Assembly: GCA_002839825.1 (NCBI GenBank)
Contig: PGYU01000001.1
Location: forward strand, 124,001 to 188,000
Origin: Ignavibacteriae bacterium HGW-Ignavibacteriae-1
GTDB taxonomy: Bacteria > Bacteroidota > Ignavibacteria > Kapaibacteriales > UBA2268
Direction of reading: 5' to 3'
DNA: 64,000 nt
Made by a program: the position numbers and the translations under genes. Of the stretch, positions 29,520 to 44,678 are shown in pieces. Under the pieces are notes generated by a model. That model had not been told where the DNA came from. It did not search any database and was given only the letters and a program-made list of their open reading frames with translations. Numbering within the stretch: the first letter of the stretch is position 1; the number at the start of each line of letters is the position of its first letter.

Positions 29520-30092
29520 GTGAAAAAGACTGTACTTGATTATGCACTGAAAGTTAAATTACCGTTCACGGTATTCATTATACTTACATCATTTGCCGTT
29601 ACGTATTTTGTGGCAAAGCCCGAAAGAGACGGCGTCGGTTATGCTCCGGAACAACCCATAAAATTCTCGCACAGACTTCATGCCGGCGATATGGCAATTG
29701 ATTGCCAATATTGCCACACAAGTGTCGAGAAATCTCGCCATGCTACAATACCATCGGCTGATGTTTGTATGAATTGCCATGCAGTAGCCAGAACTGATAA
29801 ACCGGAAATTGTGAAGTTAACCCAATATTATAAAGAGGGTAAACCCATTCCATGGAAAAGAATCCATAGAGTGCCGGAATATGCCTATTTCAACCATGCC
29901 TCGCATGTTGTCAATGGAATTGATTGCGCTAATTGCCACGGCGATGTTCGCGAAATGGATGTAATAAGCCAAGTTCATTCCTTCACGATGGGCTCTTGTC
30001 TTGATTGCCATCGCGAACCACAAAAGCGAATGCCACAAATGATCGGAAATATAAATAATGGACCTGAAAATTGTAATGCTTGTCATCGTTAA
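29520..30092 (+). CDS. actA: Alternative complex III pentahaem cytochrome ActA
   Basis: A 190-residue exported cytochrome with one N-terminal hydrophobic segment (about 15-32) and five CxxCH sites: 62-66, 83-87, 136-140, 160-164 and 185-189. Extra histidines (H51, H54, H126, H129 and others) supply the distal ligands. ActA is the peripheral electron-transfer subunit of alternative complex III, the quinol:cytochrome c reductase that replaces bc1. Start is GTG, with AGGCGAG just upstream; the preceding potential stop overlaps it as TAGTG. The gene opens the ACIII operon, which is followed by actB after the micro-gene. Confidence 0.95.
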   Translation: MKKTVLDYALKVKLPFTVFIILTSFAVTYFVAKPERDGVGYAPEQPIKFSHRLHAGDMAIDCQYCHTSVEKSRHATIPSADVCMNCHAVARTDKPEIVKLTQYYKEGKPIPWKRIHRVPEYAYFNHASHVVNGIDCANCHGDVREMDVISQVHSFTMGSCLDCHREPQKRMPQMIGNINNGPENCNACHR

Positions 30093-30124: not shown

Positions 30125-30301
30125 ATGAGTAACACAAGAAGAAAATTTTTCAACTCGATAGGTGTAAGCGCTCTTGGCGTTTTTGCACTTAATGTTTTAC
30201 CCGTGAAATTTATTAAGAACGGCAAAACGGAAACTCAACCCAATCCTAAGGTTGTTATTCATCCTCTTGCTGTAAACAGAAACATAAAAGGGGATGGTTG
30301 A
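30125..30301 (+). CDS. 58-residue Tat-signal micro-protein in ACIII operon
   Basis: A small gene between actA and actB. The 58 residues begin MSNTRRKFFNS, a twin-arginine motif, then a hydrophobic span (about 12-26, IGVSALGVFALNVLP), followed by a basic and then hydrophilic tail with HPLAVNRN. It has the layout of a Tat-exported or Tat-anchored small protein. Its TGA shares the A with the actB ATG (TGATG), indicating translational coupling. An ATG, a lone twin-arginine motif and tight spacing on both sides make a chance frame unlikely. Function unknown; it may be an ACIII maturation or assembly subunit. It resembles small Rieske-like signal regions but has no iron-sulfur motif. Confidence 0.7.
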   Translation: MSNTRRKFFNSIGVSALGVFALNVLPVKFIKNGKTETQPNPKVVIHPLAVNRNIKGDG

Positions 30302-33300
30302 TGGATAATAATGCTACTAAACCTCGATTTTGGAAAAGTCTGAATCTATTGGCTAATAAACCAGAAAGTATCGAAAGCACTCGCCACGAATTCCAAAAGG
30401 GAGTCACCGACGATTTCGATTTGAATGCACTTCCCGATAAATCAAGGAGAAAGTTCCTTGCTGTGCTTGGTGCTTCTGCGGCTTTTGCGGCTACAGCTTG
30501 TTCTGACTATCCGGATAAAGGCGAAATCATTTCGTATAATAAAAAACCGTCGGGAGTGGTGTATGGTCATGCTAATTATTACGCATCATCTCTCAACAGC
30601 GGGCTGGGAATTTTAATCAAAACTAGAGAAGGTCGCCCTATAAAAGTGGACGGCAATCCTCAGCATCCTATTAATGCGGGCAAAGTTGATGCTACTGCGC
30701 AAGCTACAATGCTTGACTTGTACGACCCGGGAAGAGTGCGTTATCCGGTCAAAAAATCAGATAGCAAACTGATTCTCAACAAAGACGAGATGCCCAAAAC
30801 TGATTGGGAACGCATTGATAAAGATATTACCGAAAAATTGAAAGCTGCCTCGCAATCGGGCAAGGAAATTGCCATTGTTGCGCATTCAGTCAAATCTCCG
30901 TCACAGGAAAAATTGTTCAATGAATTTGTATTGAAATATCCCACTACTAAGTTCTACACTTACGAAGTTTTCGGTAATCAAAACAAATTGGGCGCATGGG
31001 AAAAATGCTACGGCAATAAAAATCTTCCAGTCATTGCTTGGGATAAAGCTGATGTAATCGTAGCTTTGGAATGTGATTTCCTCGGTACAGAAGGAATCAC
31101 TGTCGAACAAATCAAACAATATACGACAAGACGCGATGTTGATAATGCCCAAAACTTCAATAAGTTATATACTGTTGAAGCAAATTACAGTCTAACAGGT
31201 GCAAATTCAGATTATCGTTTGAAACTCTCGCCTGAGTATCAATACGATTTTATCATGGCATTGATTAATGAAATTGCTGTCAAAAAATCGCAATCTGCAG
31301 CAAATTTAGACGATTCGGCAATGTCACGAATCAGCCAATATAGTATTTCGGATATTGCTTCAAAATATGGCTTACATGCTGATAAGTTGGCTTCGATGGT
31401 TGATGACATTTTGCATCACCCAACTAAGACGCTTGTTGTCTGTGGAAACAGCCTTCCTGAAGAGTGCCACATTGCAGCGAATTTGCTAAATGAAGTTCTC
31501 GGAAGCGTTTCGAATGTCTATTCCGATAAATATGAAGTTTTGCACAGACCTATAAACACGCTTGCTGAATTTGCACAATTAAGTGCAAAAATGAAATCCG
31601 GCAATGTCGGAGTTTTGATTCATTTTGATTCAAATCCTGCTTATCATTTACCTCGTGAAATTGGATATACAGATGCATTGAAAAGCGTTGAGACAATCGT
31701 TTCGATGATTCATCTCGAAAATGAATCTTCTGAGGGCAGTCATTACATTTTGCCTGTCAATCACGAATTCGAATCTTGGGGTGATTTCATGCTTCGCAAT
31801 GGTGTGTTGAGCACTCAACAACCTGTTATCGCACCGATATTTGATTCTCGCCAAAAAGAAGCAGTCTTGCTCAATTGGATGTCTGAGGATTACACAAAAT
31901 ACAATCACGATATTTATAATCAATATATCAAAGCACATTGGCAGGAAAAAGTTTACCCAAGTGCCAATACTTTTAGCTCTTTTGATGAATTTTGGTATTC
32001 ATGTTTGCATGATGGCATTTTTACTTGGGATGAAGTTGGAATTCCTCGTGCGGCTTTTAATGCAGCAGCGTTATCGACAACGCAAAATTCCTTGAGCAAA
32101 TCAGGCTTTACGGTTATTTTGACTCAGCCACATTATCTGGGCGACGGTCAATATGCTAATAATGGCTGGTTGCAAGAAGTTCCGCATCCGATTACAAAGG
32201 TCGTTTGGGACAATTGTGCTATGATGTCGCCTGCAACTGCAAAAAAACTTGAAGTAGCCTACGGTTTAGACAAATTGGATAAAATCTCTGATATGATTGA
32301 CTTAACCGTAAATGGCAAAACACTCAGACTTCCTATAATGCCACAACCGGGTATGGTTGATGATGTGATTGCTGTTGACCTTGGTTACGGCAGAACAAGA
32401 GGCGGTGAAGTTGGAACGGGCGTAGGGTTTGATGCTTATACATTGATGAACAAATCCGGAAGCAAAATCTATACGGGTGCATCGGTTGCTAAAGCAGGCG
32501 AAAGCTACGAATTGATTTCGAGCCAAGAACATCATTCTCTTGATGAAGATTTCGTCAAGGATTTCCATTTAAAACGCCACATAATTCAAGAATTTACAGT
32601 TCCATTTTATGTAGAATTTGAAGATAAGCTGGAAGAAGCAAAATCACGTCTCAAATCCGAATTCGGTGATGATCGCGAAGCTTACGAAAAAGCATTGAAA
32701 ACAGAGAAAATCCATCTTTTGGGACATCACGAATACCAAAACCATAGCATGTATCCCGATAAGGAATATCCGGGTGTTAAATGGGCAATGGCTATTGACA
32801 TGAACAAATGTACCGCTTGCAATGCTTGTGTAACAGCTTGTAATGTCGAAAATAATATCCCGATTGTGGGCAAAGAAGAATGCGGCAAGGGTCGCGAAAT
32901 GCACTGGATGAGGATTGATACCTATTTCAGCGGTACTCCTGATGAGCCAATTACAAGTATGCAACCTATGCTTTGCCAACATTGCGATAATGCACCATGC
33001 GAAAACGTTTGCCCGGTTGTTGCAACCAATCACAGCCCCGAAGGATTGAACCAGATGACTTACAATCGTTGTGTCGGTACGAGATATTGTGCCAACAACT
33101 GTCCTTATAAAGTTAGAAGATATAATTTCTTCGATTTCCGCAATGATTTCAAAGATGGTTACTATCGCAAGGACACACTCGAATTATTGAATAATCCCGA
33201 AGTAACAGTCCGTTCGCGTGGTGTAATGGAAAAATGTACATTCTGCACTCAAAGAATCGAAGAAGCTCGTTCGGCAGCAAATATTAAGGGCAGAAAAATT

Positions 33301-33513
33301 CAAGGCTCTGATGTAGTGACAGCTTGTCAAGAAGCTTGTCCGTCAGATGCAATTATATTCGGAGATATGAATGACCCGAATTCTAAAGTATCGAAATTAC
33401 GCAATCACAGTTTGGGTTACCACGTTCTCGAAACGATTATGGTCAAACCCAACGTTACTTACATTTCAAGATTGAGGAACACAAACATGGAGGATACACA
33501 CAGTGGCCACTGA
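30301..33513 (+). CDS. actB: Alternative complex III iron-sulfur subunit ActB
   Basis: A 1070-residue fusion of a molybdopterin-oxidoreductase-like domain (without visible Mo-cofactor cysteine) and a polyferredoxin domain. The Tat-variant motif [15 protein letters not shown] (near 48-62) is followed by a cysteine. The C-terminal part holds four cysteine clusters: [43 protein letters not shown] and CTFCTQR with CQEACP, consistent with three 4Fe-4S and one 3Fe-4S centre. ActB transfers electrons between quinol sites and the cytochromes. Length is standard. Its start shares one base with the micro-gene stop, and it overlaps actC by 11 bases. Confidence 0.95.
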
Positions 33514-34912
33514 TATTACTCATGAAGTTTCTGTAATAGAAGGTAAGCCTACACTCAAAGAGATTGATGCTACCATCATCAAGCCAATGGATGAGATGCC
33601 GAATATCAAATTTTTTATTGCAATCGGTTTCACAACTACATTGCTTTTGATAGGTGTTTTTTCATTAGGTATGGCATTTTACCGAGGCGTGGGTCTATGG
33701 GGTGTTAACAATCCCGTAGGTTGGGGCTTCGCTATCATCAATTTCGTATTTTGGGTGGGTATCGGACATGCCGGTACGCTTATTTCTGCGATTTTGTTCC
33801 TCTTCCGCCAAAAATGGAGAACGGGTATAGCTCGATTTGCCGAGGGCATGACGATTTTTGCGGTTATGACGGCAGGGCTCTTCCCTTTAATTCACGTCGG
33901 ACGCCCTTGGTTAGATGGCTATTTGATGCCACACCCTAACCAACATAATTTGTGGGTGAATTTCACTTCACCTTTGTTATGGGACGTTTTTGCTGTTTCA
34001 ACTTATTTTACTGTTTCATTTGTATTTTGGTATATGGGCTTGGTTCCTGATTTCGCAACAATGCGTGACAGACTCAAAAACAGTACAGTAGTATCAAAAG
34101 TTAAAAAGACAATTTACTCAGTTTTATCTTTAGGTTGGAGATTTTCAAACCGTCATTGGTCACATTATGAAATGATGTATCTCGTTCTTGCCGGATTTGC
34201 GACGCCACTTGTGCTCTCGGTTCACACTATAGTATCATTCGACTTTGCTGTTTCGATTGTACCGGGTTGGCATACAACCATATTCCCACCATATTTCGTT
34301 GCGGGAGCGGTATTTTCGGGCTTTGCAATGGTTCAAAATGCTTTGATTATCATCCGAAAAGTGTTCAATATGGAACATATCGTTACGCTTGATACACTCG
34401 AAAAAATGAATAAAGTTATCATCGTTACAGGTATGATGGTTGGCTATGCTTATGGTATGGAATTTTTCATTGCTTGGTATAGCGGTCACGAAGTCGAATC
34501 CTTCGCCTTTTTGAATAGAGCATTCGGACCTTATACTTGGGCTTACTGGATTATGGTAAGTTGCAACGTTATATTCCCACAATTTTTCTGGATAAAGAAA
34601 CTAAGAAGAAATATTCCATTCATGTTCGTAATAGCTATTTTAGTAAACGTTGGTATGTGGTTCGAGAGATTCGTAATTACAGTTACCTCGCTTTCTCGCG
34701 ATTATTTGCCATCGAGTTGGGCATATTACGTCCCAACAATTTGGGATATCGGATTGTTGATTGGTAGTTTTGGATTCTTCTTTACATTATTACTATTATT
34801 CACACGAACTATGCCTGTAATTTCAATTGCTGAAGTAAAAAGTGTTGTTGCCGGTTCTCAACCTACTCGACATAAATTAGGTCATCACGAGGAGGACGAG
34901 CATAATGGATAA
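33503..34912 (+). CDS. actC: Alternative complex III membrane subunit ActC
   Basis: A 469-residue NrfD/PsrC-family integral membrane protein with about ten helices, forming a quinol-binding subunit of alternative complex III. Typical elements are [14 protein letters not shown], the helix region [12 protein letters not shown]-like ([12 protein letters not shown]) and a HSIVSFDFA-type loop ([17 protein letters not shown]). The GTG start is supported by GGAGG nine bases upstream, within the 3' end of actB. The N-terminus has a long soluble leader before helix 1. The stop overlaps the ActDE start by eight bases. Confidence 0.95.
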
Positions 34913-36044
34913 TAAAATTTTACATTCGGTAACTGCTATTTTCCATACACCGGACGATATTATTAACGCTGCAAAAGCTGTCGTCAAGGAAGGCTATAAG
35001 AAATTTGATGTACATACTCCATATCCGGTTCACGGAATGGACCAAGCTATGAAATTGAAGCGTTCTCCTTTGGGCTACTTTGCTTTCGTACTTGGAGTTC
35101 TTGGTGCAACGCTTGGATTATTGCTGATGTATTGGACTATGACTATAGACTATCCGCTTAATATTGGCGGCAAACCTACTTTCCCGTTGCCGGCATTTAT
35201 TCCGGTTACCTTCGAGATAACTGTATTACTTGCTTCGGTTGCAACAGTTGTGGCTATGATTGTTATCTTTTTCAAATTTCCTAATAACAGTCATCCATTG
35301 CACGATACTGAATACATGAAAAGAGTATCTTCGGATAAATATGGCGTGACAATCGAAGCCGCTGACCCAAATTTTGATTTGGAAAAAGTTAAAGCGTTTC
35401 TTGCAAAGCTTGGCGGTACAAATGTTGAACCGATTTATTTCGATAATGATGAAATTAATGCAAAACGAACTCTATTAGAACCAAAATTCTTGACAGGATT
35501 GGCAGTTATCTCAGTGTTAGTAATTGCGATTACATATTTCACTCTGAATAAATTGATGTTCTTGGAACCGTTCAATTGGATGATGAACCAACAAAAGATT
35601 ACAGCGATGGAAGTTACTACATTTTTTGATGACGGATTTTCGATGAGACCTCCGATTGAAGGAACTGTTGCTCGCGGATTCAAACCATATCCTTATAAAG
35701 ATAGTGTTGACCTTGCTTCGCGATTCCTTGTAAATCCGATGGAATTTAGCACCGAAAACCTTGAAAACGGTAAACGTAAATACAATACCTTCTGTAGTCC
35801 TTGTCACGATTATCATGGCAATGGGGTTGCTCGTTTGAACGGTCAATTCCCCAATCCTCCAAGTTTGCATACGGACAAAGTTAGAGAGTGGACTGATGGG
35901 CATTTGTATCATATTATAACTGTTGGGCAAAATACTATGCCCTCGTACGATAAACAACTAACTCAAGATGAAAAATGGCAAGTCATACTGTATGTCAGAG
36001 CTTTACAAAGAGCTTTGAATGCTCAGGAGGGTGATTTACAATGA
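34905..36044 (+). CDS. actDE: Fused alternative complex III subunits ActD-ActE
   Basis: A 379-residue fusion. Residues 1-182 are ActD (DUF3341 family): a soluble start with [11 protein letters not shown] and [11 protein letters not shown], and two membrane helices (about 58-80 and 102-123). A third helix (about 195-213) begins the ActE part, which has the [12 protein letters not shown] motif (248-259), haem site CSPCH (297-301) and distal Met345 (NTMPSY). ActE is the monohaem cytochrome that hands electrons to the oxidase. In the best-known operons (Rhodothermus) actD and actE are separate genes. The frame is continuous with no stop or shift at the join. Overlaps actF by four bases. Confidence 0.9.
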
Positions 36045-37240
36045 GTAACGATAATATAGTTTTATACGAAAGAAAGCCTCTGCCTGCTAAACTACCATTA
36101 ATTGGCTGGTCATTGTTGTTGATTGGTGTTGCTCTGACAGTTTTAGCCTTTTCAATAGACAATGTTCGCGCTTCATACAATTTGATAATTGTTTTAATGA
36201 TGGTATTTAGTGTTGGATTTGGTTCGCTATTCCTTATTGCACTCGAACATATCGTGGGTGCTGATTGGAGCGTGCCATTCCGGAGACTAACGGAAATTAT
36301 TGCGGCAGTTTTGTTCGCAACTCCATTGATAGCATTGCCTTTGTTCCTGAATCTCAACGAAGTATTCTCTTGGCTTAATCCTGTGGTTATGGATTCCGAC
36401 AAATATATTAAAAATAAATCACCATATTTGAATGAGTCCTTTTTCGTCATTAGAAATATAGTTGTCTTCTTGTTCATGTTTTTATTCTACTTCCTACTTG
36501 TAGGTCGTTCGTTGAAACAGGACAAAACGGGCAAAGCCGATACAAAAAAATGGTCAACCAAGATTTCTGCTATCTTTTTGCCAATTTTCGCCATTTTGAT
36601 TACAGTTGTGGCAATGGATTGGTTGATGAGCTTGGAGCCAAAGTGGTTCTCGACAATTTTCGGTGTGTATTACTTTGCAGGCTCTGTGCTTGCAGCACTC
36701 GCAGTTCTGACTTTCATTGCGATTACATTAGCCGAAAACGGATATTTGAGCAAATATTTGACCGAAGACCATTATTACAACTTTGGTGCTTTGATGTTTG
36801 CATTTACTAATTTTTGGGCTTATATAGCATTCAGCCAGTTCATGTTGATTTGGTATGCAAATATTCCCGATGAAACAATGTGGTATATGCAACGCGGTGG
36901 GGAAGGATGGATGACTGTTTCTCTCGGATTGATTTTCATCAGATTTTTATTTCCTTATTTGGCTCTTGTCACAAGACCTTCAAAGAGCAATCCATTCCGT
37001 CTGAAAATCATTGCTGTGTGGGTGTTTATAGCTCACTATTATGATTTGTATTGGGTGATTATGCCCGAATATACTAAGAAAACTGAACTTCATGCACCGG
37101 TTTATAGTTGGTTTGAATTTACAGTGCCGATTTTGGTGCTGGGTGTATTAATAGTTGTATTCAGCCTTGTTGCGGGTAAAAAGAATTTGATGCCAATTGG
37201 CGACCCGAAATTCAGAAAAGGTATGGAATTTCACCTTTAA
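36041..37240 (+). CDS. actF: Alternative complex III membrane subunit ActF
   Basis: A 399-residue membrane protein with about ten helices, paralogous in role to ActC (quinone-binding subunit 2 of alternative complex III). Recognisable stretches are LEHIVGADWSVPFRRLTE near residue 67, ISFAMDWLMSLEPKWFST-like (VVAMDWLMSLEPKWFST), and PDETMWYMQRGGEGW. It is the last of the act genes, followed after 18 bases by the monohaem cytochrome. ActF is not thought to bind haem and none is visible. Confidence 0.93.
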   Translation: MSNDNIVLYERKPLPAKLPLIGWSLLLIGVALTVLAFSIDNVRASYNLIIVLMMVFSVGFGSLFLIALEHIVGADWSVPFRRLTEIIAAVLFATPLIALPLFLNLNEVFSWLNPVVMDSDKYIKNKSPYLNESFFVIRNIVVFLFMFLFYFLLVGRSLKQDKTGKADTKKWSTKISAIFLPIFAILITVVAMDWLMSLEPKWFSTIFGVYYFAGSVLAALAVLTFIAITLAENGYLSKYLTEDHYYNFGALMFAFTNFWAYIAFSQFMLIWYANIPDETMWYMQRGGEGWMTVSLGLIFIRFLFPYLALVTRPSKSNPFRLKIIAVWVFIAHYYDLYWVIMPEYTKKTELHAPVYSWFEFTVPILVLGVLIVVFSLVAGKKNLMPIGDPKFRKGMEFHL

Positions 37241-37258: not shown

Positions 37259-38215
37259 ATGGAAAATAAATTCAGACCCGAAGATGAGATAAATTATAAG
37301 GATTTCTTGAAAAATCCTTTAAGATTATTTGCTGTTGTTTATCCTTATTTAATTATGTTGATTATTGTCGTCGGAATGTATTGGGTATTCAATCTTGATA
37401 ATGCCTACTTAAATACTCAACAAAAACAACTGCTTGCTCGCGATACTGTTGCACCGGAAATTCCTATGCAAAAAGGTGCGATGATGGAAGGCGTAAATGT
37501 TAAGGAAATTAGTGTTCCTAGTGCTGAAATGATTGCAAAGGGAGCCGAATTATATAAAGCAAATTGCTCGTCATGCCATGGAAATGAGGGCAAAGGCGAT
37601 GGAATTGCAGGTGCAGGATTGAATCCAAAACCTCGTAATTTTACAGATTTGCAAGGCTGGAAAAATGGTGCTCAACTTTCCCATATGTGGAAGACTTTGG
37701 AAGAAGGAATCCCAGGTACAGGTATGGTAGCATATAATTACTTGACAGTTGTTGATAGATTTGCTCTAATTCATTATATGCATTCCTTGATGCCCGATTT
37801 TCCTAAGGATTCCGATTCTGATTTGGAAGCTTTAGATTTGGCTTATTCACTTTCTGAAGGCAAAGTTACATCAAACCAAATTTCGGTTTCGATGGCGATG
37901 ACCAAAATGAACGAAGAATATGGTAACAATAAGACTAAAATTGAACAATTGACTAACGAATTAAATACTGTTGAAGGCGAAATAGCTACTTTATTAGATA
38001 AAGTAATAAGCAATAAGGAAAGGGCATCTGTCACTCTAGTTCATGGCAAAATTTGGCAAAACGGAACTGATGCATTTATCCAAGAAATTAGCTCTACAAT
38101 TAACGACAATGGTTTCACACCAACGACATTGAGACTGACTAAAGACGAACTTACAACATTGCATTCATTCTTATTAAACGCCCGTAACAGGCTTAATCTA
38201 CAGTCACAATCATGA
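37259..38215 (+). CDS. Membrane-anchored monohaem cytochrome c
   Basis: A 318-residue protein with an N-terminal helix (about 28-45), a cytochrome c domain with CSSCHG at 103-107 and likely Met156 ligand, and then a 130-residue tail with charged helices including a coiled-coil-like stretch (about 215-255, NNKTKIEQLTNELNTVEGEI). It lies between actF and SCO, the place where Bacteroidota complex III operons often have a cytochrome c. It could pass electrons from ActE to the oxidase. The C-terminal extension is longer than in plain monohaem cytochromes; its role is unknown. Confidence 0.85.
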   Translation: MENKFRPEDEINYKDFLKNPLRLFAVVYPYLIMLIIVVGMYWVFNLDNAYLNTQQKQLLARDTVAPEIPMQKGAMMEGVNVKEISVPSAEMIAKGAELYKANCSSCHGNEGKGDGIAGAGLNPKPRNFTDLQGWKNGAQLSHMWKTLEEGIPGTGMVAYNYLTVVDRFALIHYMHSLMPDFPKDSDSDLEALDLAYSLSEGKVTSNQISVSMAMTKMNEEYGNNKTKIEQLTNELNTVEGEIATLLDKVISNKERASVTLVHGKIWQNGTDAFIQEISSTINDNGFTPTTLRLTKDELTTLHSFLLNARNRLNLQSQS

Positions 38216-39003
38216 AATATATTTTAGCATTTTTAATAGCTGTATTGCCTTTGAACTTGACTTCTGCAGTAGAAGACAAAGTTGAAGTCGGCATAGAGCA
38301 CGAAAAGAAACTCGGCACTTATCTACCATTGGATTTGGAGTTTGTTGATTCGGAAGGATACAAACGAACTTTGAAAGAATTGATAGACCGACCCGTAGTT
38401 CTTTCATTAGTTTATTATCATTGCCCGGGGATTTGCAGTCCTTTGCTCAATAGTCTCGGTGAAGTCATTGACAAAGCCGCTATTGAACCCGGCAAAGATT
38501 ACAAAGTATTGACAATTAGTTTCGATCCGCGTGAAAATCACGAGGACGCAAAAAAATGGAAATCGAATTATATATCAGGAATGACTCGTCCGATTTCACC
38601 GGAAGATTGGATTTTCATGGCTGGAGACAGCACAAATATTGCCAAAATCACCGATGCAGTCGGATTTAGATACAAACCTGACGGCGAAGACGATTACGTT
38701 CATGCAGGAGCATTGATAATGATTGCACCTGATGGCAAAATTACACGATATTTATTGGGTACTGAGTACTCACCATTTGATTTTAAATTAGCTGTTGCCG
38801 AGGCATCAAAGGGCATATCAGCCCCGCCGATTTCTAAGATGCTTGCGTATTGCTTCAGCTACGACCCTGAGGGTAGGACTTATGTATTCGATTTCAACAA
38901 AGTTGCCGGTACTGTGATTTTTCTTGGGGTGGGTATTTTCTTCGTGGTTTTATTAGTAAAAGGAAGAACAAAAAAAGTAAGTAAAGGAGAAGAGAATGTC
39001 TGA
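38212..39003 (+). CDS. SCO1/SenC copper chaperone
   Basis: A 263-residue protein with a signal peptide (1-19, ending TSA), a thioredoxin-fold domain and a C-terminal helix (about 230-252, AGTVIFLGVGIFFVV). The copper ligands are the CxxxC in YYHCPGICSPLL and the later histidine in DYVHAGALIMI. SCO proteins load CuA of oxidase subunit II or keep its cysteines reduced. It overlaps the upstream cytochrome by four bases and ctaD by eight, in keeping with the job. The C-terminal helix suggests a membrane-tethered form. Confidence 0.93.
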   Translation: MKYILAFLIAVLPLNLTSAVEDKVEVGIEHEKKLGTYLPLDLEFVDSEGYKRTLKELIDRPVVLSLVYYHCPGICSPLLNSLGEVIDKAAIEPGKDYKVLTISFDPRENHEDAKKWKSNYISGMTRPISPEDWIFMAGDSTNIAKITDAVGFRYKPDGEDDYVHAGALIMIAPDGKITRYLLGTEYSPFDFKLAVAEASKGISAPPISKMLAYCFSYDPEGRTYVFDFNKVAGTVIFLGVGIFFVVLLVKGRTKKVSKGEENV

Positions 39004-40642
39004 TTCGACAGTAAACACCAACGGTGATTATGTAAATTTTTACCAGTACAAAGGGAAGCATTCCGGTATTTTGGGTTGGTTGCTTTCAGTTGACCACAAA
39101 AGAATTGGTCTTTTATATCTTGGTTCGATGGTCTTATTTTTCCTTGTCGGCATGACGCTTGGTTTCTTCATGCGACTTGAAATGTGGAATCCAGGGCAAG
39201 ACGTTATGGGTCCGCAAACATATAATGCTCTGTTTACATTGCACGGCATTATAATGATATTTTTGGTAATTATCCCGGGTATTCCTGCCGGATTTGGAAA
39301 CTTTTTCCTCCCGATTCAGATTGGGGCAGAGGATGTGTCATTTCCGCGACTGAATCTATTATCGTGGTATCTCTACACAATCGGCGGATTATTGGCAGTC
39401 GCTTCGCTATTTTTGAGTGGCGGACCAATTGATACAGGTTGGACTTTTTACGCACCATATAGTTTGCGAACCGGAACTGAAGTAATAATGCCGCTAATGG
39501 CTGCATTTATTCTGGGATTCTCGTCCATTCTAACGGGTGTGAACTTTGTAACTACTGTGCATAGATTGAGAGCTCCCGGCATGACATTCTTCAAAATGCC
39601 GCTCTTTATTTGGGCTTTGTATTCAACTGCTTGGATTCAAATTATCGGAACTCCGATTATAGGTATTACAATTTTATTGGTAATTGTAGAAAGATTATTC
39701 GGTGTGGGTTTATTTGACCCTGCTATGGGCGGTGACCCGATTTTGTTCCAACACTTATTCTGGATTTATTCCCACCCGGCTGTATATATTATGATTTTGC
39801 CGGCGATGGGTGTAGTTTCCGAGATTATCCCTACATTTTCACGCAAAACAATATTCGGCTATGGTGCAATCGCCGTATCGTCTATTGCCATTGCATTTGT
39901 CGGTACTTTAGTATGGGGACATCATATGTTCACATCGGGTATGAGCGACGAATCGCGATGGGTATATTCATTCCTGACATTCATTGTGGCATTGCCTTCG
40001 GGCGTTAAAATTTTCAACTGGGTCGCTACAATGTACAAAGGCTCAATTAAGGCAGAAACACCATTTCTTTATGTGATGGCATTCATTTTCTTGTTTTCGA
40101 TTGGTGGTCTGACCGGATTAGTTCTCGGGTCATTGGCTACAGATGTCCATTTGCATGATACATATTTCGTGGTAGCCCATTTCCATTACGTTATGTTTGG
40201 CGGAACGATATTTATTTTCTTTGCAGCTTTGCATTATTGGTTCCCCAAAATGTTCGGCAAAATGTACAACACTAAAATCGCCAATATCGCACTTGCAATT
40301 ATGGTGGTTGGGTTCAATATGTTATATTTTACGTTTTTTATACTCGGATATTTAGGAATGCCTCGAAGGTATTATGACTATTTACCCGAATTTCAGGGGA
40401 TGCACCAATTTGCGACGGTTGGTTCGTGGGTGCTGATAGCAGGTATATTGCTTATGTTTACCAATTTATTCCTTGGACTGAAAAACGGCAAGAAAGCCGG
40501 AAATAATCCTTGGGGTGGAATGACTTTGGAATGGACAGTACCTTCGCCACCACCATTATTGAATTTCAAGAAAATCCCAACTGTGAAATATGGTCCTTAC
40601 GAATACGAACATTATGATGAGGTAACGAAGAATGTCAACTAA
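38996..40642 (+). CDS. ctaD: Cytochrome c oxidase subunit I (A2-type)
   Basis: A 548-residue haem-copper oxidase catalytic subunit with twelve helices. Haem and copper ligands lie in LHGIIMIFLVIIPG, IYSHPAVYIMILP, WGHHMFTSG and the paired histidines in HFHYVMFGG. The sequence YSHPAV, where common A1 enzymes have GHPEV, marks an A2-type oxidase with the Tyr-Ser motif replacing the conserved glutamate of the proton channel. This matches the Rhodothermus-type caa3 oxidase. The HPAVY tyrosine partner of CuB is present. It overlaps SCO by eight bases and ctaE by 11. Confidence 0.96.
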   Translation: MSDSTVNTNGDYVNFYQYKGKHSGILGWLLSVDHKRIGLLYLGSMVLFFLVGMTLGFFMRLEMWNPGQDVMGPQTYNALFTLHGIIMIFLVIIPGIPAGFGNFFLPIQIGAEDVSFPRLNLLSWYLYTIGGLLAVASLFLSGGPIDTGWTFYAPYSLRTGTEVIMPLMAAFILGFSSILTGVNFVTTVHRLRAPGMTFFKMPLFIWALYSTAWIQIIGTPIIGITILLVIVERLFGVGLFDPAMGGDPILFQHLFWIYSHPAVYIMILPAMGVVSEIIPTFSRKTIFGYGAIAVSSIAIAFVGTLVWGHHMFTSGMSDESRWVYSFLTFIVALPSGVKIFNWVATMYKGSIKAETPFLYVMAFIFLFSIGGLTGLVLGSLATDVHLHDTYFVVAHFHYVMFGGTIFIFFAALHYWFPKMFGKMYNTKIANIALAIMVVGFNMLYFTFFILGYLGMPRRYYDYLPEFQGMHQFATVGSWVLIAGILLMFTNLFLGLKNGKKAGNNPWGGMTLEWTVPSPPPLLNFKKIPTVKYGPYEYEHYDEVTKNVN

Positions 40643-41285
40643 TAGCACTACAAATGCAACCCATGAAGAGGAACACGGACACGAGCATGTTCACGACTTG
40701 AGAGACGATTACGGCTCCAAGCTTGGTATGTGGCTGTTCCTTTTTACCGAACTTATTTTATTCGGCGGATTGTTTTTGCTCTATATGTCTTATAGATTTC
40801 AGTATTTTCCGGAATTTCAACTTTCTGCAAAAAGCCTAAAGATATGGATGGGCGGCTTGAATACTATCATTCTGCTTACAAGTAGTTTGACTATGGTGTT
40901 GTCTATCACAGCTTTGCAACGTCGCAAAATTAAAGCATCAATTTATTGGCTAATTACGACGATTGTTTTTGCTTCCGGATTCCTTGTGGTTAAATTTTTT
41001 GAGTGGTCCGATAAATTTTCTCATGGAATTTTCCCGGGTGGCGAAGAGTTAGCACTCAAATCGCAAGGCGAAAAAGTTTTTTACGGATTATACTTTACTA
41101 TGACAGGCTTGCACGGGCTTCACGTTATAATTGGGATGATTATTCTTGGATTTATTTTAGTTTTCATTGTCAAAGGCAAGGTCAGCCCCGATAGATTTGC
41201 ACTAATCGAAAACGGTGGACTTTATTGGCACCTTGTTGACTTAATTTGGATTTTCCTTTTCCCACTATTTTATTTATTGCACTAA
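40632..41285 (+). CDS. ctaE: Cytochrome c oxidase subunit III
   Basis: A 217-residue membrane protein, seven-helix-family but with about five clear helices, as in bacterial subunit III. Motifs: KLGMWLFLFTELILFGGLF in the first helix, YFTMTGLHGLHVIIGM and ENGGLYWHLVDLIWIFLFPLFYL at the end. The N-terminus is rich in His and acidic residues (EEHGHEHVHD), which could bind metal. Subunit III stabilises the catalytic unit. It overlaps ctaD by 11 bases. Confidence 0.95.
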   Translation: MSTNSTTNATHEEEHGHEHVHDLRDDYGSKLGMWLFLFTELILFGGLFLLYMSYRFQYFPEFQLSAKSLKIWMGGLNTIILLTSSLTMVLSITALQRRKIKASIYWLITTIVFASGFLVVKFFEWSDKFSHGIFPGGEELALKSQGEKVFYGLYFTMTGLHGLHVIIGMIILGFILVFIVKGKVSPDRFALIENGGLYWHLVDLIWIFLFPLFYLLH

Positions 41286-41294
41286 GGGGTACAA

Positions 41295-41603
41295 ATGTCA
41301 TATACTGATACAAATGAAGGAAAAATAGCTCACGCTCACGACCCAAGATATGGAATCAATGTTATGATTTGGATTACTCTCCTATCATTGACGGTTATTA
41401 CAATTGCGGTCGCCGGTCTTGATTTGGGGAATTACACTCTTTTGGTTGCAATGTTTATAGCAGCAATCAAATCCGGTTTCGTTATAAACTACTTCATGCA
41501 CATTAGGTTTGAAGATTTGTTGTTTAAGTTGTTTATTGCCGGAGTGATTATGGTTCTTTTAGTGGTTTTTGTTTTGACAGCATTGGACGTATTCTTAAGA
41601 TAA
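41295..41603 (+). CDS. ctaF: Cytochrome c oxidase subunit IV
   Basis: A 102-residue protein with three helices (about 21-38, 43-63, 76-98) and NYFMHIRFED between the second and third, typical of bacterial caa3 subunit IV. AAGGGG lies just before the start. It follows ctaE by nine bases. Confidence 0.92.
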   Translation: MSYTDTNEGKIAHAHDPRYGINVMIWITLLSLTVITIAVAGLDLGNYTLLVAMFIAAIKSGFVINYFMHIRFEDLLFKLFIAGVIMVLLVVFVLTALDVFLR

Positions 41604-41613
41604 GGAACAAAAC

Positions 41614-42294
41614 ATGTTTGAAACAGCATCAGATTATGCTCAAAATGTAGATTTTGTAATGCTTTTGATTGTTGGCATCTCAGTTGTGCTACTGTTAGGC
41701 ATTACTATTGCCATGATTTATTTTGTTATCCGCTACAGTAGAAAAAGAAACCCTGTAGCCAAACAAATTCATGGGCACGTATTACTCGAAATTATTTGGA
41801 TTGTTATACCTACTATTATTGTTATGATAATGTTTTGGTATGGTTACGAAGGCTACCAAAGGCTTCGAGCCGATTCGGAGGGCGCTTACGAAGTAAAAGT
41901 TTTTAGTTTTATGTGGGGATGGAATTTCGAATATCCTAATGGCAAAAAGACCGACACTTTATACATTCCTTTGAGCCAAAAAACTAAACTTGTAATGACT
42001 TCGAGAGATGTGTTGCACAGTTTATACATTCCGGCTTTCAGACTCAAAGAGGACCTTATTGCAGGTAAAAGCACATTCATTGTACTCGAGCCTTCCAAAA
42101 CAGGCTCTTTTGATATTGCTTGTGCCGAATATTGCGGTTTGAATCATTCCAGAATGTACACTAAATTGCACGTTCTCGAAGATAGCGAATTCGACAAATG
42201 GCTAAAGATTGGTATGCCTGACGAGGAAATAAAAGATGAAACTGAAACCGATACACCGCAAGATTCTGTGAAAGCAGAAGTTCTAGCAAAATAG
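41614..42294 (+). CDS. ctaC: Cytochrome c oxidase subunit II
   Basis: A 226-residue protein with two N-terminal helices (about 14-37, 52-73) and a periplasmic CuA domain. CuA ligands are visible: the His of DVLHSLYIPAF and C-A-E-Y-C-G-L-N-H-S-R-M near residues 171-182. The WGWNFEYPNG motif is the cytochrome docking tryptophan region. No cytochrome c domain is fused to the C-terminus, which instead is acidic (DEEIKDETETD), so the oxidase may be aa3 with separate cytochromes rather than a true caa3. Subunit order I-III-IV-II is unusual relative to many operons. Confidence 0.95.
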   Translation: MFETASDYAQNVDFVMLLIVGISVVLLLGITIAMIYFVIRYSRKRNPVAKQIHGHVLLEIIWIVIPTIIVMIMFWYGYEGYQRLRADSEGAYEVKVFSFMWGWNFEYPNGKKTDTLYIPLSQKTKLVMTSRDVLHSLYIPAFRLKEDLIAGKSTFIVLEPSKTGSFDIACAEYCGLNHSRMYTKLHVLEDSEFDKWLKIGMPDEEIKDETETDTPQDSVKAEVLAK

Positions 42295-42318
42295 TATTTA
42301 AAAATTAAATTGAAATCA

Positions 42319-43218
42319 ATGTCTAACGAAAAAATAAATAGTATTAGCGAAATGTTTAGGTCGAAAATTGAGATTCTTGCCGAATTGAGCAAAGTTAAGA
42401 TAACCTTTTTTGTTGCCATTTCCGGAACAGTGGGTTATATACTTGCAGGTGGTTTGGTAGGATTTGAAATGCTCATGACTTTGCTTGGCATTTTCATTCT
42501 CTCTTGTGGTTCATCAGCTTTTAACCATGTGCAAGAAGTCAAAACTGACGCTTTGATGGTCAGGACAAAAAATCGTCCTTTACCTCAACAAAAAATGAGT
42601 ATCAGCGAATCTGCTGCATGGGCTTTAGCTATGGTGGTGACAGGATTGTTGATTTTGATTGTATTCACAAATCCTCTGGCAACTCTTCTTGGCGTGGCGG
42701 CACTCGTTTCTTACAATCTCATGTACACACCGCTCAAAAAGCTCACTGCATTTGCTATTTTCCCGGGTTCGATTGTTGGAGCATTACCTCCGGCTATTGG
42801 CTGGGTTGCAGCAGGTGGCGGCATTGCTGACCCCAAGCTAATGTCATTGATGGTATTTTTCTTCGTGTGGCAAATTCCCCATTTCTGGTTTTTGATGCTC
42901 ATTTATGATAATGATTATCGTCGAGCCGGATTCCCGACTCCATCGAGATATTTTTCTAACGAGCAACTAAAGCGCATTACTTTTGTTTGGATTGGTGCAT
43001 TGGCTGCATCGTGCATGATGATACCATTTTTCGGGGTTACTCATAGCGTATTTACCAATTTGCTTTTGCTTTTGGCGGGTGGAATTTTACTTTGGAGAAC
43101 TCGCTCACTTGTTGTAAAATTGGAAAAGCAATTCAATTTGAAACTTGCTTTTGTTGATATAAATGTTTATGTATTATTTGTAGTTGTTTTACTTTCAGTT
43201 GATAAATTCATTAATTGA
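42319..43218 (+). CDS. ctaB: Protohaem IX farnesyltransferase (haem O synthase)
   Basis: A 299-residue UbiA-family prenyltransferase with nine helices that farnesylates haem b to haem O, the precursor of the oxidase haem A. The aspartate-rich motif is NHVQEVKTDALMVRTKNRPLP, with E replacing the first Asp found in many relatives; a second motif is IYDNDYRRAGFPT. The haem A synthase gene (ctaA) is absent here. Start is ATG 42319, preceded by a possible in-frame TTG at 42310. It follows ctaC by 24 bases. Confidence 0.93.
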   Translation: MSNEKINSISEMFRSKIEILAELSKVKITFFVAISGTVGYILAGGLVGFEMLMTLLGIFILSCGSSAFNHVQEVKTDALMVRTKNRPLPQQKMSISESAAWALAMVVTGLLILIVFTNPLATLLGVAALVSYNLMYTPLKKLTAFAIFPGSIVGALPPAIGWVAAGGGIADPKLMSLMVFFFVWQIPHFWFLMLIYDNDYRRAGFPTPSRYFSNEQLKRITFVWIGALAASCMMIPFFGVTHSVFTNLLLLLAGGILLWRTRSLVVKLEKQFNLKLAFVDINVYVLFVVVLLSVDKFIN

Positions 43219-43241: not shown

Positions 43242-44594
43242 ATGGAATTTTTGGACAAACTTGTTATACCGCAACCCGATTATAATTTGAACCTATTGAA
43301 TTATTTTCTGATACTCGGGTTGACGATTTTTCTTGCTTATTCGGGAGTCTTATTCGGCAGCATGACATTGTCGGTATATTTTCGAAACAAGAGTAAAAAA
43401 GCAACTGATAATAATGCAAAATTATCGCGTGATTATGCTGATTTGATAACCGATAACTGGATTTATTCGTTCGGTCTCGGGATTGTTCCTCTATTATCAA
43501 TCATTTTCATTTATACTCAATTGCTTCATAAGCAACCTGTAGCAATTGTCACATATCTGACAATAGCATTCTTGTTTTATCTTATATCGTTACTTCTGGT
43601 TCATAAATATAAAAAATCTTTGCATCTGAGCTTACTGTTTTCAGCTTTGAAAAATAAAGTTGGCGAAAGTGACGAAGTGTCTGCAGAGATTGAATCTTTG
43701 AATAATTCCACAAACACAACAAAAGGAATGACAGGCACATGGTCAGTGGTCTTGTTGTTCATTAGCATGTGGATATTTGTCGGAGCGGTCACATTTGCTA
43801 TGAACCCTGATTCATGGGTGTTTGGAAATTCTTTGACAGTATTATTTTCGGGTGCATCAATTCTGAAATTTTTGCAATTCATCACTGCTGCTTTAGCATT
43901 TACCGCAATATCATTTGTCTTCAGAAATTTATATTGGGATGCCGAAAGAAAGCATTACACAGAAGAATATGTTGAATATGCAAAGAATTTTAATCTATGG
44001 TTAGCATTAGTGACCGGATTAATTTTGCCAATTTTCATTGTTGCATCATTGTTCATAATACCCAAAACTTCGCTAAATCCGCAAATATTTGCTGCCGTTT
44101 TATTGAGTCTATTGTTATTGTTGGTAATCCTCCAACAAATTTACTTAGTCCTAAAAGGAAATAAAAATAGCTTCATCAGATACGCATTTTATTCATTTAT
44201 AGTCGTATTTTTCTTGATGGCATTTATAGATAAAGCTGCCTTCAGCGTAGGGAATAGAGCACACGTACTTGTTCTTGACCAAGAATACAAAGTGCATAAA
44301 GAAGAGTTTTTGGCAAGTCTTGGGATTGAAGCAGCACCGATTGATGGTGCGGAAATTTACACCGGTAGATGTGCTGCTTGCCATCGCGATGAGGATTCTC
44401 CTTTAGCTCCGGCTCATAAAAATATAATGCAAAAATATTTAGACCAAGCTGACCCTTTGACTGCATTGGTACAATTTATCCAAAATCCGACGCCTGTCAA
44501 TCCACAATGGTCCCCGATGCCTAATCAAGGTTTGACGCCTCAGGAAGCCCAAGCTGTTGCTGAATATATGCTCGAAAAATATTCAACTAAGTAA
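43242..44594 (+). CDS. Eight-helix membrane protein with C-terminal cytochrome c
   Basis: A 450-residue protein of unrecognised family. Hydrophobic helices are visible at about 20-44, 74-95, 97-121, 166-187, 196-230 (long), 251-274, 281-304 and 311-334. The remaining 115 residues carry a single haem c site, CAACH (377-381), and a probable Met426 ligand (SPMPNQG), with a C-terminal helix typical of class I cytochromes. No quinone or metal motif is obvious in the helices. It ends the oxidase operon, 23 bases after ctaB. Placement suggests an electron-transfer partner of ACIII or of the aa3-type oxidase. Conserved loop SRDYADLITDNW and an RNLYWDAERKHY segment may help homology searches. Confidence 0.7.
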   Translation: MEFLDKLVIPQPDYNLNLLNYFLILGLTIFLAYSGVLFGSMTLSVYFRNKSKKATDNNAKLSRDYADLITDNWIYSFGLGIVPLLSIIFIYTQLLHKQPVAIVTYLTIAFLFYLISLLLVHKYKKSLHLSLLFSALKNKVGESDEVSAEIESLNNSTNTTKGMTGTWSVVLLFISMWIFVGAVTFAMNPDSWVFGNSLTVLFSGASILKFLQFITAALAFTAISFVFRNLYWDAERKHYTEEYVEYAKNFNLWLALVTGLILPIFIVASLFIIPKTSLNPQIFAAVLLSLLLLLVILQQIYLVLKGNKNSFIRYAFYSFIVVFFLMAFIDKAAFSVGNRAHVLVLDQEYKVHKEEFLASLGIEAAPIDGAEIYTGRCAACHRDEDSPLAPAHKNIMQKYLDQADPLTALVQFIQNPTPVNPQWSPMPNQGLTPQEAQAVAEYMLEKYSTK

Positions 44595-44631
44595 TAAACT
44601 AAGTAATAAACTAAGTAATAAATAAGTAATA
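44585..44631 (+). repeat. Tandem 12-base repeat over the stop codon
   Basis: AACTAAGTAATA occurs at 44585-44596, 44597-44608 and 44609-44620, with a shortened copy (AATAAGTAATA, 44621-44631) after it. In the frame of the upstream gene each unit reads Thr-Lys-stop-stop, so the first unit provides the natural TAA at 44592. Likely slippage-generated DNA; a regulatory role is not evident. Confidence 0.85.
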
Positions 44632-44678
44632 AATTTTAATATAAGTATTTTTTCTGAGTGAATTAAATAAAAATTTCT

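Follow-up and report, generated by a model that had tools for sequence, protein, structure and literature searches.

The window studied here is a stretch of 64,000 nucleotides from Ignavibacteriae bacterium HGW-Ignavibacteriae-1, and all of its genes described below lie on the forward strand. At 43242-44594 it holds a single open reading frame with an ATG start, which encodes a protein of 450 amino acids plus stop. The gene is the last of an operon with the order ActA-ActB-ActC-ActDE-ActF-cytochrome c-SCO-CoxI-CoxIII-CoxIV-CoxII-CtaB-450-residue gene, and it begins after a gap of 23 nt behind CtaB; it does close the oxidase operon, as had been claimed when only the sequence was read. A 12-bp tandem repeat, AACTAAGTAATA, present in 4.2 copies at 44585-44633, spans the stop codon and extends beyond it.

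The operon starts with an ActA-like multiheme cytochrome of 190 residues with five CxxCH motifs (29520-30092), ActB (30298-33513; MROS_0044 is the Melioribacter roseus gene in the same order), ActC (33503-34912), a fusion of ActD and ActE with a cytochrome c (34905-36044; PF11821) and ActF (36041-37240). A single-TM monoheme cytochrome c, ActE-like and the counterpart of MROS_0040, lies at 37259-38215, followed by the copper chaperone SCO1/SenC (38212-39003). The oxidase genes are CoxI (38996-40642), CoxIII with five TM helices (40632-41285), CoxIV (41295-41603) and CoxII (41614-42294), which has the CuA motif CAEYCGLNHSRM and no CxxCH. CtaB, the heme o synthase of the UbiA family (PF01040), is found at 42310-43218.

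Both hydropathy and an AlphaFold model give the 450-residue protein eight TM helices, at about residues 18-46, 73-94, 102-123, 166-187, 204-230, 250-272, 280-306 and 311-333. This part, residues 1-342 (43242-44267), has the fold of CydA according to AlphaFold and profile. Residues 366-447 (44337-44582) form a periplasmic class I cytochrome c domain, c551/c552-like, that matches PF00034 (E 6.5e-8, above the Pfam cut-off), and from the charged-loop topology both termini are outside. The sole CxxCH of the protein is the CAACH heme c attachment site at residues 377-381 (44370-44384), while Met426 (44517-44519) is the presumed distal heme c ligand. C377, C380, H381 and M426 are all invariant, i.e. 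both the CxxCH and the distal Met of a class I cytochrome c are present. In general the cytochrome domain is more conserved than the membrane part: in an alignment of 20 relatives it has twelve invariant columns, the TM part two.

The layout of eight helices and then one CAACH cytochrome c, as proposed in the sequence-only reading, is thus borne out by the reading frame, hydropathy, AlphaFold and PF00034. Two details of that reading fare less well. The loop SRDYADLITDNW is present, but its conservation is only moderate and the family pattern is FSKDLIDLVTFNK; and it is not helix 5 that is long, since the longest predicted helix in the AlphaFold model is the fourth, residues 144-186.

No credible match to the TM part came from Pfam or NCBIfam, and at that level the protein is indeed unassigned. 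A profile search of PDB sequences returned spurious membrane or designed proteins only and was set aside. The predicted fold, on the other hand, is that of CydA of cytochrome bd. In the first AlphaFold model, built on 20 relatives (pLDDT 85), residues 10-356 match CydA in VIA with Z 24.9 over 309 residues at an rmsd of 3.7 Å, and a second model, built on 12 other sequences, matches it with Z 25.8 over 299 residues (rmsd 3.2). The next, unlike groups are the NrfD-type subunits of ACIII (Z 18-19) and UbiA (Z about 9). Helices 1-8 of CydA (PDB 7oy2, 5doq) are matched over about 300 residues at Z 24.9-25.8 with 8-9% identity; compared with CydA, the window protein lacks the Q-loop, the ninth helix and the heme ligands at the tested positions, and it has a cytochrome c in addition.

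The same relationship was found with profiles. When 89 relatives are combined into a profile, hhalign matches it to CydA'-type subunits of the bd superfamily with a probability of 98.9% (E 1.2e-17, 290 columns) and to OR-N-type CydA with 86.6% (E 4.5e-6). Five unrelated membrane families from the operon, ActC, ActF, CtaB, CoxI and CoxIII, served as controls and reach 0.2-1.9%. Compared directly with canonical CydA the profile gives 1.8%, which is not significant, so the link rests on the fold and on the CydA' intermediate; OR-N-type CydA matches canonical CydA with 96.1% and bridges CydA' to CydA. Judged from predicted fold and profile together, the TM part is a CydA'-type member of the cytochrome bd superfamily. 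The profile search and structure prediction earlier suggested as a check therefore did find a described family, CydA'/CydA.

The Pfam CydA matches in the class Ignavibacteria take in divergent bd-like gene pairs. We call these local CydA/CydA' pairs "OR-N-type", an assignment of our own that is not tree-based, with bd class names as used in papers citing Murali et al. 2021. The OR-N-type CydA partner possesses the TM1 His together with Glu residues in TM3, and mostly a C-terminal CxxCH, while the CydA' partner has no TM3 Glu. The CydA fold is common to both the window protein and the CydA' of such pairs (L194 6742-7854, L141 9094-10440), and the L141 protein, too, has a CxxCH domain at its end. 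However, known CydA' keeps the TM1 His and is encoded beside a ligand-bearing CydA, and the window family has neither. Some OR-N-type CydA encoded elsewhere in the class (L148, L189, L190, L191) have eight TM helices and then one C-terminal CxxCH, like the window protein; unlike the window family they keep the TM1 His and the TM3 Glu, and their profile match is weaker. Together with the CydA fold and the CydA' match, these relatives contradict the earlier view that no known oxidase subunit has this layout. At three of these loci (L148, L189, L190) an ACIII-cbb3-like cluster precedes bd-like CydA/CydA' genes that encode a C-terminal cytochrome c.

The active-site heme ligands of cytochrome bd are missing. 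At the position of the axial TM1 His of CydA and CydA' (E. coli H19) the window protein has Phe30 (43329-43331), and none of the 89 members has His: the residues are F (71%), L (26%), Y or V only. The TM5 His of CydA' is replaced by Gln212 (43875-43877), a position with Q in 31%, F in 17%, I in 11% and H in 9% of the 89 relatives. No Glu corresponding to E99/E107 is found in TM3 of the window protein (residues 102-123) and none is conserved in the family alignment (A1). Further, the quinol-binding Q-loop is absent, as the loop between helices 6 and 7 has about 7 residues. With TM1 His, TM3 Glu and Q-loop all absent, the membrane part is not expected to bind active-site hemes or quinol. A heme b site on the frequent H15 or H96 was also considered and dropped, given that these are conserved in 78% and 67% and that the window protein has Asn at position 15. 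Also, no catalytic CydA gene adjoins in the operon, as it does in OR-N CydAA' pairs; the one canonical CydA of the genome is on another contig.

The family is present in 154 of the 294 genomes of the class, and in 88 of the 89 aligned members a CxxCH domain stands at the C-terminal end, so the layout is not due to chance; the single exception is cut by a contig end. An apparent "TM-only" version in one genome (G103) was rejected for the same reason. Eight or nine TM helices are predicted in all 88 complete members. Outside the class we found weak CydA'-like matches only. The record JAGXRP010000006.1 (L096) is titled Desulfobulbaceae bacterium CROMO_A_116; it comes from a genus-mate of the window genome, so the title looks wrong.

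The order from ActB to CtaB and the family gene is almost invariant in the loci found through the gene itself. As such loci are selected for the gene, a count based on CoxI is a fairer test. A family member is encoded in 145 of the 146 genomes of the class with a close CoxI type, in most of them immediately downstream of ctaB; in the remaining one (G250) the contig stops just behind CoxII, within the oxidase operon. In three genomes (G092, G170, G219) the oxidase operon ends at CtaB and a family copy is found in a nar or nos cluster. The gene is thus absent beside the same operon in these relatives, with a copy elsewhere, and it is not strictly needed in cis. For the absence from relatives that the sequence-only reading named as a refutation, this is a mixed answer. 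Three other genomes (G006, G008, G009) have an ACIII operon without CoxIII, CoxIV or the family gene. Three ACIII operons of the window genome's family (L238, L239, L240) stop behind the ActE-like cytochrome and have no adjacent oxidase genes.

Relocated copies (L146 9437-10702, L145 9792-11063, L246 8545-9813, L247 9393-10673) adjoin nosZDFY, nrfHA and narGHJI-like clusters; a DoxX-like gene is usually their neighbour. The tree of the family points to two or more moves into nar, nrf or nos clusters. One relocated copy is in a nosZ operon, and NosZ also has a CuA-type domain; the copies at nar and nrf have no CuA partner beside them.

In six loci (G255, G303, G200, G238, BMS3Abin04, BROCD011) the operon lacks CoxI, CtaB, and CoxII or its CuA part, and in five of the six also SCO. 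Retained are the ActE-like cytochrome, CoxIII, CoxIV, the family gene and, within the reach of the contig, ActA-F. ACIII operons of this kind, with CoxIII and CoxIV kept, were seen at L060, L113, L152, L153, L154 and L217. A tree of ActC, ActDE and ActF requires five separate events for the reduced operons, and from their nesting the direction is probably loss. The cytochrome domain is gone as well in two of the five lineages, G200 and G255/G303, where the family protein is shortened to 342 and 364 residues, while in the other three it persists without CuA. No close CoxI is found elsewhere in the genomes G255, G303 and G200 or in the other two tested (G238, G236), and most reduced-operon genomes retain a cbb3-type oxidase. 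G236 looks like a further reduced case but is fragmentary.

What could the protein do? We find it rather probable that it is an orphan CydA'-like scaffold without heme b, sitting on ACIII, CoxIII and CoxIV, whose tethered cytochrome c feeds the CuA of CoxII. A CydA'-type member of the bd superfamily would have lost its b/d-heme ligands and come to carry a class I cytochrome c at the periplasmic end of helix 8. In the membrane, the eight helices would dock with CoxIII, CoxIV and ACIII, and the cytochrome would accept electrons from ACIII (ActE-type hemes) and pass them to CuA, replacing the cytochrome c domain that CoxII bears in caa3 oxidases. Most likely, then, the protein holds an electron carrier in place between two respiratory complexes. 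From what was computed (fold, homology, heme c motif, missing ligands, topology, synteny and retention pattern) we infer the physical contact, the direction of electron flow and CuA as the acceptor. The electron-transfer subunit imagined in the sequence-only reading fits this evidence and is a likely role. For a sensor, the other function proposed there, the analysis gave no support.

The rest of the operon is in agreement with such a role. In Flavobacterium johnsoniae ActA bears an extra mobile heme domain, and the caa3 oxidase of R. marinus has its own heme c (PMC8552683). Here the ActA-like protein, at 190 residues, leaves no room for an additional mobile heme domain at the N-terminus; with CoxII lacking a CxxCH, the operon is otherwise without a terminal mobile heme of either type. 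The proposed role, a membrane-tethered terminal c heme that feeds CuA, is the same as for the cytochrome c domain of caa3 CoxII and the N-terminal heme domain of F. johnsoniae ActA (PMC8552683), although their anchors are unrelated to that of the window protein. Further, the contact between ACIII and oxidase in F. johnsoniae is a five-helix CoxIII (PMC8361435), and CoxIII in the window likewise has five helices. Also in favour are the near-constant presence of the family in genomes with this CoxI, its retention with ACIII, CoxIII and CoxIV in the reduced operons, and the reliable detection of the M. roseus orthologue in aerobic cells only. The copy linked to nosZ fits a CuA donor because NosZ also has CuA; with copies adjoining nar and nrf as well, electron donation may not be limited to CuA.

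Several observations count against this reading: complete oxidase operons that lack the gene beside them in three genomes, the cytochrome domain that persists without CuA in three reduced lineages, the ACIII operons of G006, G008 and G009, and the copies at nar and nrf with no CuA partner nearby. Moreover, electrons could be delivered in its place by the ActE-like cytochrome at 37259. The protein might then be mainly a structural subunit of ACIII/CoxIII/CoxIV, a supercomplex glue with an auxiliary cytochrome c, and the ActE-like cytochrome the real donor. The TM part does persist without the cytochrome domain in two lineages and every reduced operon retains the ActE-like cytochrome, but we think this unlikely: most invariant residues of the protein lie in the cytochrome domain, which is lost only where CoxI/CoxII were lost.

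The gene adjoins ctaB in most genomes, as might be expected if it helped to assemble or stabilise the oxidase, with a cytochrome that reduces copper or heme sites. Such a function is quite improbable, however, as the family gene stays in reduced operons from which ctaB, and mostly SCO, were lost, and copies have moved to nar, nrf and nos loci.

In M. roseus the protein has already been described, to that extent it was not unassigned. In genome G197, counted from the start, gene 31 is sodium-solute symporter-like, 33 the family member, 35 CoxII, 38 CoxI, 39 SCO and 40-44 ACIII. This numbering matches the M. roseus papers (PMC3534657, PMC5492636), which makes G197 M. roseus and MROS_0033 the family member. 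By synteny and sequence MROS_0033 is the orthologue of the window protein; it has 446 residues and aligns over residues 1-447 with 33% identity. These papers call MROS_0033 a soluble class I cytochrome c551/c552, a redox partner of the oxidase, and the passages on it do not mention a membrane part. In PMC5492636 the proteome reliably identified it in aerobically grown cells only. The cytochrome domain is c551/c552-like, as published, and its release by cleavage is possible. Nevertheless, a soluble shuttle between complex III and the oxidases is very unlikely in view of the full-length alignment and of the TM helices predicted throughout the family.

Least of all do we expect the TM part to be still catalytic, as a divergent OR-N-type oxygen/NO reductase or quinol-reactive unit to which its own cytochrome c supplies electrons: it is homologous to CydA/CydA', and bd-like OR-N enzymes are reported directly downstream of ACIII in Nitrospirales (PMC12342949), but the ligand positions and the missing CydA partner described above speak against it.

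Given the eight-TM layout, MROS_0033 should no longer be read as a soluble cytochrome. The reduced operons indicate that CoxIII and CoxIV can persist where CoxI/CoxII are absent. More tentatively, the ACIII of this clade might own a module of CoxIII, CoxIV and the heme-less CydA'-like cytochrome c that can be attached to different oxidases or CuA enzymes. Loss of CoxI/CoxII would then leave the module with ACIII, and a move of the subunit to nos or nar would wire the chain to nitrogen oxides. ActE is dispensable in F. johnsoniae (PMC8552683), and for the question of how ACIII passes electrons to its oxidase the clade offers natural knock-outs.
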